Assembly: GCA_016178015.1 (NCBI GenBank)
Contig: JACOUB010000007.1
Coordinates: 62,001-126,000, forward strand
DNA length: 64,000 bases
Source of the DNA: Methylocystis sp.
Lineage (GTDB): Bacteria; Pseudomonadota; Alphaproteobacteria; Rhizobiales; Beijerinckiaceae
Reading direction: 5' to 3'
Below are positions 21,661-56,196 of the stretch, one piece after another (position 1 is the first letter of the stretch; the number at the start of each line of letters is the position of its first letter). Position numbers and translations under genes: made by a program. The notes under the pieces are model-generated. The model worked only from the letters and a program-made list of their open reading frames with translations, was not told where the DNA came from and made no database searches.

Positions 21661-21969
21661 GGATGCCGGTTCCGAAAGCGCTGATCCTCGGCGCCGCGGC
21701 TACGGCCTTCGACGGATCAGGATGTTGAGACGCCGCCCGAACGCTGAGGCGCGCGCCTCGCCATGGATACGACAATCCTGCCTAGCTCGCTTCGCTTGCT
21801 CCCGCAAGACGCCAGCCCACGTCATTGCGCAAGGGCGATGGGCGACCCTTCGCAAACCGGTAACCATAAATTCGGGGCAAGTCTGTGGCGGGGCCAAAAA
21901 ACCTCTTGTCATTCCTGCAAACGCGCGTATTTAGTGAGTTGCCCAAATCGCACGTGCCTGTGGTCGTGT

Positions 21970-22115
21970 GTCGGTCGGCGGAGTTCCGGACAAGAGGCCG
22001 GTCAACCGCCGGAACGTAACCGGCAGCCGGAGGCGAACCGGCGAACTCCGCCTGAGCGGAGGATCGCGACTTAAAGCAACGACGGACCGGGCTTTTTTGG
22101 TCTCTGTCGGCCCTC
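21970..22115 (+). ncRNA. Structured leader upstream of the decarboxylase gene; candidate alphaproteobacterial speF leader RNA
   Basis: Closing pairing ggcggagtt (21977-21985) with aactccgcc (22044-22052); internal gttccgg (21983-21989)/ccggaac (22009-22015) and CCGG-rich arms; located ~310 bp upstream of an ODC-type gene. Confidence 0.55.
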
Positions 22116-22426
22116 CAAAGGTCGACTTACCGAAGAGGCTTGTCTTTCTTGCCGGGCGTGCGGAAAGGGATCATCCCCTTCCAATCGATGGCTACCCCAG
22201 TCGAATCACATGTCCGCAGCGGCGTGTGCCATTCGGCGTCCGGCTAGCCTACGGCGCATCACCCGATCGCCAAGACGCCGCGATGCGAGCGGCGTGGCGG
22301 CGATCATGGATGACAGTCGTTTGCCGCTCGTCGCGTCTCCATCGCGCGCGTGCGGCGCTGCGTCCATCGAAGCTGTTGGCCAATTCGGCGCAGGCTACGC
22401 CTGCGCCCTTCGTTGGGGATGCCGCG

Positions 22427-32390: not shown

Positions 32391-32615
32391 GATTGCGTCC
32401 CGCCCCCCTAGCTCGACGATTGCCGAGCACGCGCGCCATCCGGCGACAGTTCGGTAGGGCAGGACGACTTTACAACGTGAATATGTTGCGCGAGGCGCAC
32501 AAAGTCAACGCGAGGGCGGGTAGGGAGCCGGCGCGAATTTCCGATTTCTGCTTACCGAGCGCTTACCGAAAGCACAAGCCGATCGGATCGATGGCCGCTG
32601 ATATGCAATAAGCAC

Positions 32616-44532: not shown

Positions 44533-46032
44533 TCAAAACTCCGCCCAGGTTTGTTCGGAGGTCTCGAATTGCTCTTTTGGAGCCGCCGCTGAATTCCATG
44601 ACCTCGAGAGAGTCTTGCGCGCAGTTTGGGGCGGCGCCGATTTGAGCGATGCGTGGCCTCGGTGAGAAACGGGATTGGCTGCAGGGGGATCGACTGCGTT
44701 ACGGTGACCTACGTTGAAGGTCGAGATCAACTCGGCAAGTTGGCCTATGGCATGTTTGAGACCATGGCCCGCCGCCGTCGTTTCTTCGACCATGGCGGCA
44801 TTCTGCTGAGTGAACTGATCCATCTGTCCGACCGCCGTATTGACCTCCTGCAGGCCGGTAGACTGTTCACGCGCGCCGCTGGCGATCTCCGCCACGACTT
44901 TGTTCGCCTCTGCGACTTGACCGACGATGCGGCTGAGGGCGGTTCCGGTCTGGGCGACGAGCGTGACGCCCTCATCGACTTGCGACGTCGACGCCGAAAT
45001 GAGATTCTTGATTTCCCTCGCCGCTTCGGCGGAGCGTTGCGCCAGAGCGCGCACCTCGGAGGCCACAACCGCAAAGCCCCTCCCCGCGTCGCCGGCGCGC
45101 GCGGCTTCGACGCCGGCGTTTAACGCCAACAGATTCGTCTGGAACGCGATTTCATCGATCACCGTGATAATCTGCTCGATTTCTTGCGAGGATTTTTCGA
45201 TTCTCCCCATCGCTTCGATCGCCTGGCGAACAATTTCGCTGCTCTTCTCTGCGTCGTTTCTTGCGTCGGATACGACGCTGCAGGCGTGTTGCGCGCCGTC
45301 AGCCGTCTTCTTCACCGTCGCGGTGATCTCTTCCAGCGCCGCCGAGGTTTCTTCGAGGCTGGCTGCTTGTTGCTCCGTTCGATGGGAAAGCGCGTCCGCA
45401 GCGCTCGAGATCTCTTGGGTTCTTGAATTCAAGCCGTCGATATGGTCGATCATGTCGAGGAACGTCGCTCGGAGCTTGTCAATGGAAGTATTGTAATAGT
45501 GTCTGATATTTTCGTAATCGCGCGAAAACGCCTCGTTCAGCCGATGTTTTAAATTTCCCGTCGACAGCTCGTCGAGAGCCGCTGTGAAGGACGTCATGAA
45601 TGTGGTGTGCGCTTCGACATAACCTCGCGCCTCTTCATCGCTGGCCGCCTTTCGCTCGGCGGAAGCTTTTTGTTCGGCCGCCTGTGCGGCGAGGACGCGC
45701 TGCGTCGTCGCCTTGAGCTGGCTGCGCAGTTGTTCTACGGCGCCAGACAATATGCTGATTTCATCCTTCCCGGCGGCCCCGGCGACAGGCGTCTCATAGT
45801 CGCCTTCAGCTATCTTGCCGATGGCGCCTTGTAGGGCCTTGGCGGGCCGCGTTACGCTGGCGCGCAAGATATAGATGACGGCCGCCAGCGATATGATGGA
45901 CGCCAGCCCCCCAATCTCCATCCATTGTGGGTGGGCGGCGAATTCGTCGTTCCAGAGCGCCGACCCCACCAATAGCCATGGAGCGGCGGCGAGGCCAAAC
46001 AATGGCGTAAGAAGTTTTACGACGAGTTTCAT
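44533..46032 (-). CDS. Methyl-accepting chemotaxis protein (HAMP + MA)
   Basis: IDEIAFQTNLLALNAGVEAARAGDAGRGFAVVASEVRALAQRSAEAAREIKNLI. Confidence 0.95.
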   Translation of the reverse strand: MKLVVKLLTPLFGLAAAPWLLVGSALWNDEFAAHPQWMEIGGLASIISLAAVIYILRASVTRPAKALQGAIGKIAEGDYETPVAGAAGKDEISILSGAVEQLRSQLKATTQRVLAAQAAEQKASAERKAASDEEARGYVEAHTTFMTSFTAALDELSTGNLKHRLNEAFSRDYENIRHYYNTSIDKLRATFLDMIDHIDGLNSRTQEISSAADALSHRTEQQAASLEETSAALEEITATVKKTADGAQHACSVVSDARNDAEKSSEIVRQAIEAMGRIEKSSQEIEQIITVIDEIAFQTNLLALNAGVEAARAGDAGRGFAVVASEVRALAQRSAEAAREIKNLISASTSQVDEGVTLVAQTGTALSRIVGQVAEANKVVAEIASGAREQSTGLQEVNTAVGQMDQFTQQNAAMVEETTAAGHGLKHAIGQLAELISTFNVGHRNAVDPPAANPVSHRGHASLKSAPPQTARKTLSRSWNSAAAPKEQFETSEQTWAEF

Positions 46033-46610
46033 CGTGTCCCTCAGTGCTGGGGGGTACGAGCGCATTCTTCATCGCAGCGCAAGCTCGCCTTACGCGAGCT
46101 CGACCGACGTGAATTTAAGAGAGGCATCCCGAGGGGGACATTCCGGATTTTCCGGCATATCGGGACAGCGTCATGCTTTTGACCAGTGAATCATGAAGAT
46201 TGGGGTCAACCCGATATGAAAAGAACCTAATTTTCGCCGGTTAATTCTTCATTAGCGTAAGTTGAATATCCCCGTCCCTCCAGGCGTGGATCGAGTGGCG
46301 GAAGGCGTTTTGCGCCGTGCGCCGCATCAACTGTACAAATCTGGACTTGGCGCCGAATCAACTCGATCGATGTCTTCTTACCTGACCGGAGTCGGCGCGC
46401 CGCCGGTTGGGGGCGCAGCTAACAACACACGTTGCGATAGCGCGCCGAAACCCCGCGCCCTGCGGCGGCTCGTCTCGTTTTTTTCAGCAGAATCCGCCAT
46501 TTCCTTTCCCAAATTATGGTTGAAATTTCCTTTCCCAAAGATTAAGGCTTTGGCGCATCGCAGATTGGAACGGTTCGCCCCGCATCGCTCCAAAGGCATG
46601 AAGGCGGGCT

Positions 46611-46673
46611 GCGATACCGGTTGAAATCCGGTATGTCCCCCGTAACGACCGTGTGCCCAAGGGACATACGAAC
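46611..46673 (+). promoter_or_regulatory. Flagellin 5' UTR with two overlapping hairpins; the second covers the Shine-Dalgarno
   Basis: ataccgg(46614-46620)/ccggtat(46628-46634) and gtatgtccc(46631-46639)/gggacatac(46661-46669); arms share gtat; SD aaggga 46659-46664, ATG 46674. Confidence 0.7.
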
Positions 46674-47606
46674 ATGACCTATCTCTTAACGAACGCCAAC
46701 GCTCTGACAGCGCTGCGCTCGCTCGCCCTGACGCAGCAAGAGCTGCAGGCGACGCAAAAACAGATTTCGACTGGCCTACGCGTTGGCGAGGCTTCCGACG
46801 ATCCGGCCTACTTTGCGGCGGCGACCACCCTGCAAACCGACAATGGCGCGCTGGCCTCGGTCAAGGACGCTCTAAATCTCGGCGCCTCGACGCTCAACGT
46901 CGCGTCGTCGGCTCTTACCGCTTCGATTTCGGCGCTCAATCGGATCAAGACGAATCTCGTATCGGCCCGGCAATCCGGCGCCAATCAGGCGGCGCTGCAG
47001 ACCGAGATCAGTTCTTTGCAGGCGCAGCTGAAGAGCATCGCGACATCGGCTTCCTTCAGTGGCCTGAACTACCTTAACGCGGATCCGGCGGCGACCCGCA
47101 GCATCGTTGCTTCGTTCTCGCGCGACGCCTCGGGCAATGTCACAATAGGTCAAATTACCATCGACCCCGCCGCCTCCGGCGCCATCGCACTTTTTGATTC
47201 GACCGGCGGCAATGCAGGAATACTGGACGCGGTTTCGACCTTTGTCGCCGGTCCGCCGTCGAGCGGCACTGGTTTTAGCGTCAGCAACATCGATTTGACC
47301 CAAGTTGGAACTGCCGGGCATACGGCTAGCATCGACGATTTGGTCCAACAGGTCGATGCCGCCCTTCAAAAGGTCACCAATGCGGCGAGCGTCTTCGGCG
47401 CCGCCGAGGCGCGAATTGGTTTGCAACAGACGTTCATCTCAAATCTCTCGGACGCCATCACGAACGGCGTTTCGTCACTCGTCGACGCCGACATGAATCA
47501 GGCTTCCACGCGACTGGCGGCGCTCCAGACGCGGCAGCAACTGAATGTGCAATCCTTGAGCATGGCCAATTCCAACAGCCAGCTCATTTTGCAGCTCTTC
47601 AAGTAA
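46674..47606 (+). CDS. fliC: Flagellin
   Basis: MTYLLTNANALTALRSLALTQQELQATQKQISTGLRVGEASDDPAYFAAATTLQTDN...NSNSQLILQLFK. Confidence 0.95.
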   Translation: MTYLLTNANALTALRSLALTQQELQATQKQISTGLRVGEASDDPAYFAAATTLQTDNGALASVKDALNLGASTLNVASSALTASISALNRIKTNLVSARQSGANQAALQTEISSLQAQLKSIATSASFSGLNYLNADPAATRSIVASFSRDASGNVTIGQITIDPAASGAIALFDSTGGNAGILDAVSTFVAGPPSSGTGFSVSNIDLTQVGTAGHTASIDDLVQQVDAALQKVTNAASVFGAAEARIGLQQTFISNLSDAITNGVSSLVDADMNQASTRLAALQTRQQLNVQSLSMANSNSQLILQLFK

Positions 47607-55429: not shown

Positions 55430-55777
55430 ATGTATCAACAATCCTACGCCGAAATTGTCGAAGGCTCGGCTAGCGCGGCGCGCGGGCGAGAGCGCGCGCT
55501 GTTGGAGCGGACAATCAGGATGCTTGCCATCGCAAAGGTCAAGGGCCTACGCAGTCAAGAAGCGTTCGAGGCCACCTCGTACCTGCGAAGGTTATGGACA
55601 ATCCTCATCGAAGACCTCGGCAGCGCGGGGAACGCTCTGCCTGAACCCTTACGCGCTTCTCTCATCTCGATCGGCCTATGGATTCTCAAGGAAGCCGAGC
55701 TGATCGACTGTGGACAATCGAGCAATTTCGATGGTCTGATAGAGATAAATCAAATGATCGCAGACGGATTGACCTGA
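55430..55777 (+). CDS. flaF: Flagellar biosynthesis regulator FlaF
   Basis: YQQSYAEIVEGSASAARGRERALLERTIRMLAIAKVKG...YLRRLWTILIEDLGSAGNALPEPLRASLISIGLWILKEAE. Confidence 0.93.
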   Translation: MYQQSYAEIVEGSASAARGRERALLERTIRMLAIAKVKGLRSQEAFEATSYLRRLWTILIEDLGSAGNALPEPLRASLISIGLWILKEAELIDCGQSSNFDGLIEINQMIADGLT

Positions 55778-55785
55778 GGCCGCCA

Positions 55786-56196
55786 ATGAACATCTGCCTG
55801 CGTCGAGGAGAAAAGTTGTACCTCAATGGAGCGGTGCTCCGCGTCGACCGTAAAGTATGCGTCGAGCTCATGAATGACGTCACCTTCCTTTTGGAAAATC
55901 ACGTGATGCAGCCGCAAGACGCAACGACGCCTTTAAGGCAGCTCTACTTTGTCATTCAGCTCATGCTCATCTCGCCCAACGACACCGCCGCCGCGCGCGA
56001 TATGTGCCATGGCATGCTCGCCTCACTGAACCAGGCATTCACCGATTCGCGCGTTATCGAAGGGCTGGCGATGGTCGCCAAGCATATCGAAGACAAACGA
56101 ACTTTCGACGCCCTCAAAGCAGTTCGCGCACTATTTCCATACGAAAGCGAAATCATGAGCGCCAGCCAAACGCTCAGCAGCGATAGAGCGGCATAA
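55786..56196 (+). CDS. flbT: Flagellar biosynthesis repressor FlbT
   Basis: MNICLRRGEKLYLNGAVLRVDRKVCVELMNDVTFLLENHVMQPQDATTPLRQLYFVIQLMLI. Confidence 0.95.
   Translation: MNICLRRGEKLYLNGAVLRVDRKVCVELMNDVTFLLENHVMQPQDATTPLRQLYFVIQLMLISPNDTAAARDMCHGMLASLNQAFTDSRVIEGLAMVAKHIEDKRTFDALKAVRALFPYESEIMSASQTLSSDRAA

Follow-up and report, generated by a model that had tools for sequence, protein, structure and literature searches.

The flg-Rhizobiales RNA (RF01736) is described as lying before flagellar genes, and translational riboswitches and RNA thermometers are leaders that sequester the ribosome-binding site. In Caulobacter, FlbT reportedly acts on the 5′ UTRs of flagellins (PMC3930126); in Bradyrhizobium it is reported to induce translation of the lateral flagellins LafA1 and LafA2 (PMC8429497). 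The action of FlbT on these UTRs is described as opposite in sign between species and as unsettled in mechanism (PMC4347634). The flagellin leader described here lies in a 64,000-nt stretch of a Methylocystis sp. contig, and the whole stretch is referred to as the window. It resembles the FlbT-controlled leaders of Caulobacter, Brucella and Bradyrhizobium in being a flagellin 5′ UTR for which post-transcriptional control is proposed (PMC3930126; PMC4347634; PMC8429497), and in that a single gene cluster also codes for FlbT and FlaF. Like the sequestering leaders, it holds its Shine-Dalgarno sequence inside a conserved helix; unlike them, it has no known sensor domain, and no Rfam family corresponds to its putative receiving part (P1-P2-A). 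With the flg-Rhizobiales RNA it shares a Rhizobiales host and a flagellar context, but it differs from that RNA in model match and in loci. No published description of the leader was found in the openly accessible literature searched.

An earlier note on this DNA had proposed that the flagellin 5′ UTR contains a cis-acting RNA, made of a hairpin A and a helix B that encloses the ribosome site. Hairpin A, both arms of helix B, the Shine-Dalgarno sequence and the start codon are all located where that note placed them (Table 1). A larger conserved leader RNA extends 5′ of the two helices, which make up its 3′ half. The flagellin 5′ regions of relatives have a common block upstream of the ATG, and before flagellin genes across the order the same hairpin recurs with the same Shine-Dalgarno pairing and with compensatory changes. 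In folding, the 91 nt from 46600 to 46690 outperform 198 of 200 dinucleotide shuffles (z -2.6); conservation is stronger evidence for the original observation than this score. Transcription probably starts near 46557, just before P1, because weak promoter-like signals precede P1 by about 20 and 45 nt and an A at -8 is conserved. Two copies of a 15-mer (ATTTCCTTTCCCAAA) lie just before the leader, at about 46498-46539 (+).

Table 1. Positions in the window of the flagellin leader, the second leader core and the associated genes (models R1 and R2 and alignment A3 are described in the text).
Feature	Position	Strand	Details
Helix P1	TTGGA 46565-46569 with TCCAA 46589-46593	+	Family-wide complementarity
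P2 hairpin position, GGC-ATGAA-GGC	46595-46605	+	G-G mismatch breaks P2 here; intact in nearly all relatives
Hairpin A	46614-46634	+	ATACCGG 46614-46620; T-loop-like heptaloop TTGAAAT 46621-46627; CCGGTAT 46628-46634
Helix B, 5′ arm GTATGTCCC	46631-46639	+	GTAT overlap with hairpin A
Helix B, 3′ arm GGGACATAC	46661-46669	+	
Shine-Dalgarno sequence AAGGGA	46659-46664	+	Within helix B 3′ arm; position conserved in A3
Flagellin gene, 310 aa	46674-47606	+	ATG at 46674; paralogue L027 carries Flagellin_N and Flagellin_C
Second leader core	46126-46212	-	R1 E 2.8e-7 in window; R2 E 2.1e-9
Second core, P1	TTGACC 46204-46209 with GGTCAA 46179-46184	-	
Second core, P2, AGC-ATGAC-GCT	46167-46177	-	
Second core, hairpin A, CCGG-AAAAT-CCGG	46143-46155	-	
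Possible helix B of MCP leader	46035-46140	-	TGTCCC 46135-46140 with GGGACA 46035-46040; at Shine-Dalgarno sequence of ATG 46032
Methyl-accepting chemotaxis protein gene, start MKLVV	44533-46032	-	MCPsignal, HAMP; annotated-style ORF begins at 46065
flaF	55430-55777	+	Pfam FlaF, E 4.9e-30
flbT, candidate regulator	55783-56196	+	Pfam FlbT, E 2.2e-39

The leader is a real, structured RNA that occurs across the order and is absent from Rfam 15. Searched against Rfam 15 at an E-value of 10, positions 46450-46750 returned chance-level scores only, with neither RF01736 nor the cobalamin models among them. Membership in flg-Rhizobiales, which had been raised for this locus, was thus not borne out; elsewhere in the source genome RF01736 gave sub-threshold matches only (best 19.4 bits against a gathering threshold of 55), and in the listed genomes that have both elements (G233, G338 and G373) they occur at different places. 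We take hairpin A to resemble the T-loop arm of a cobalamin riboswitch. The leader differs from that class in having no Rfam match to it, whether here or in 20 relatives; the only Rfam hits of those 20 diverse leader loci were two weak ones to RNA families from animals, both sub-threshold and on the other strand. Every Rfam 15 family, flg-Rhizobiales included, was rejected as the identity of the flagellin leader. The window does contain Rfam matches above the cut-off, namely the ar45 sRNA (21941-22096, +), directly followed by a speF leader (22105-22236, +), and a DUF3800-IX RNA (32393-32465, -).

A covariance model built from close relatives (R1) comprises only seven pairs and leaves out helix B. 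With it the leader was detected in 85 of the 198 family genomes and in 110 of the 397 from the order. A second model (R2), run on genomes from within the class but outside the order, gave nothing convincing, with weak scores only (best about 28 bits), and the P2-A core was absent from the seven of these weak loci whose pattern was checked. The leader may differ from FlbT-controlled flagellin leaders in that no R2 match stands out beyond the order.

Conservation of structure was assessed in A3, for which 133 flagellin leaders were aligned with MAFFT from sequence alone. P2 (GGC AUNAN GCC) is paired in 99.2% of cells and the core of hairpin A in 98.7%, with C-G replaced by U-A in eight rows that represent at least three lineages by our count. 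Helix B is paired in 80.9% of cells and shows double changes at six of its eight pairs (e.g., GUUCC/GGAAC). The covariation check that the earlier note had called for therefore found compensatory changes in P2, hairpin A and helix B alike. None of 500 shuffles reached the covariation score of these elements, and the signal was lost when the partners were slid; since the shuffles leave relatedness in place, it matters that several independent lineages contribute. The members of A3 were found by a model that held the pairs of P2 and A and not those of B, which makes B and P1 the least biased tests. Helix B reaches 5 bp or more in 115 of the 133 leaders, compared with 20% when partners are shuffled, and a good helix B is absent in about 14% of leaders. 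P1, the helix before P2, covaries as well: with its 5′ strand placed from CRGR context alone, it forms 3.72 of 5 pairs, whereas permutations give 2.94 (highest of 1000, 3.22). The claim of a cis-acting RNA stands, in that the ribosome site lies inside a conserved, covarying helix, and we accept the predicted sequestration of the Shine-Dalgarno sequence by helix B as a family feature that the alignment supports. The loops of P1 and A differ widely in length (3 to 13 nt for loop A, which is often T-loop-like, as in 54 of 86 heptaloops), the linker is only moderately conserved, and the P2 loop keeps unpaired letters (AUNAN).

Some loci add variations on this arrangement. Just past the window (G000:C34:127839-127941, +) is a flagellin paralogue that also has a leader; there, a TCGACG at the Shine-Dalgarno side could pair with a 5′ CGTCGA instead of helix B. 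Pairing of this kind (CGTCGA/TCGACG), which would join the 5′ linker to the Shine-Dalgarno side and is hinted at by close relatives, did not exceed swapped controls over all leaders and was rejected. L188 and L189 are a tandem pair of leader cores before one flagellin gene.

It had also been proposed that A and B are mutually exclusive and that A frees the ribosome site, and a strict two-state switch of this kind is, in our judgement, doubtful. In its favour, A and B share 3-4 nt (GTAT in the window sequence), and these nAUG columns can pair either with a 5′ YRU, extending A, or with a YRU on the Shine-Dalgarno side, extending B, both partners remaining largely complementary throughout the family. 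However, the UCCC/GGGA of helix B, which holds the Shine-Dalgarno sequence, is outside the overlap and can coexist with full hairpin A, so that mutual exclusivity is supported only in part and strict exclusivity is not. Nor does the formation of A release the ribosome site in the predicted fold of the window sequence, in which A is formed, B is absent and the Shine-Dalgarno sequence is paired in a third local hairpin (CGTGTGCC with GG-ACATACG). Forcing B in this fold costs about 5 kcal/mol; single-sequence folding is weak evidence, and the window copy also has a broken P2.

The P2-A core is also found before genes for MCPs (protoglobin-MCPs included), PAS and GGDEF proteins, a STAS protein and a few others, many of the GGDEF cases being from one genus. 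Over all non-flagellin sites, pairing of helix B was not above that of shuffled controls, and the helix is mostly absent. In the window, a second core precedes the methyl-accepting chemotaxis protein gene and may have a helix B of its own; a similar match of UGUCCC to the Shine-Dalgarno sequence is present in L161. The flagellin/MCP intergenic region thus holds two divergent leader copies. Further copies in the source genome precede a PAS protein (G000:C37:87835-87931, -) and a HAMP/4HB sensor protein (G000:C25:67493-67590, -).

The presence of flbT near the locus, as claimed earlier, was confirmed by Pfam together with flaF, the two genes being situated 9 kb downstream in the same cluster as the flagellin gene. 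The leader thus occupies a flagellin 5′ UTR in a genome that encodes flbT. Within the family, FlbT is encoded in 82 of the 85 genomes with the leader and in 52 of the 113 without a leader match, a co-occurrence that is confounded, as possession of flagella explains much of it. Two genomes of one genus (G103 and G194, with L146 and L147) have flagellin leaders and no FlbT match. In genus g78, which we take to be Bradyrhizobium, genomes of 7-8 Mb carry two flbT copies, and the leader is located before flagellins (about 320 aa) arranged in tandem at a distance of 12-13 kb from one of these copies. These leader-bearing flagellins would fit the lateral flagellins LafA1 and LafA2. FlbT is the leading candidate for the effector, and its binding to the leader is putative.

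The occurrence of one core before flagellin, MCP, PAS and GGDEF genes raises the prospect of a new Rhizobiales riboswitch-like class, in which a P1-P2-A aptamer would read a motility signal by binding a motility-tied small molecule (e.g., a cyclic dinucleotide), with helix B as the translational output for flagellin and other outputs for other genes. The conserved unpaired letters of the P2 loop and the T-loop-like loop A agree with such a domain. The ligand is purely hypothetical, however, and the variable length of loop A and the moderate conservation of the linker would be unusual for a ligand pocket; we regard both the aptamer and the class as unlikely. Smaller still is the chance that the leader is passive, stabilising the 5′ end of the mRNA or setting a constant low level of translation without switching: its helices do lie near the inferred 5′ end and the single-sequence fold is stable in one form, but a strand kept for two alternative partners and covariation at the ribosome site exceed what stability needs. 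We consider it very improbable that the conserved block acts as DNA, that is, as an operator or as the region first transcribed from a class III flagellar promoter, with inverted repeats that resemble hairpins in appearance only. The gene set does resemble a class III motility regulon, and the place of the block relative to the promoter-like signals is constant; yet the loops of P1 and A vary widely in length, substitutions in the arms compensate one another, and the strands that B joins at the Shine-Dalgarno sequence are far apart.

Comparison of relatives demonstrates, at the level of sequence, a conserved structure that pairs the ribosome site. For the mechanism, including repression by B, the identity of the effector and the direction of regulation, we infer a conserved P1-P2-A-B leader in which B is by default closed over the Shine-Dalgarno sequence and is opened by a trans-acting factor, likely FlbT, and we think this reading probably correct. 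The flagellin 5′ UTR would form a structured leader of helices P1 and P2, hairpin A and helix B, in which the UCCC beside hairpin A pairs with the GGGA of the Shine-Dalgarno sequence and would keep translation low until B opens. P1-P2-A would serve as the receiving domain, probably for a factor that acts in trans and belongs to the flagellar system. FlbT, partnered by FlaF or flagellin, is the likeliest such factor, and a shift of the nAUG strand from B into an extended hairpin A may help to open B. Counted against this FlbT-opened leader are the fold of the window sequence without B, the broken P2 of the window copy, the two leader genomes with no FlbT hit, and the occurrence of the core before non-flagellin genes, mostly without B; we know of no control by FlbT of the non-flagellin genes that the core precedes. 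A defined four-helix RNA conserved across an order provides a concrete target for FlbT binding and reporter tests, and its distribution suggests a post-transcriptional control common to flagellin genes and to some of the chemotaxis and GGDEF genes.
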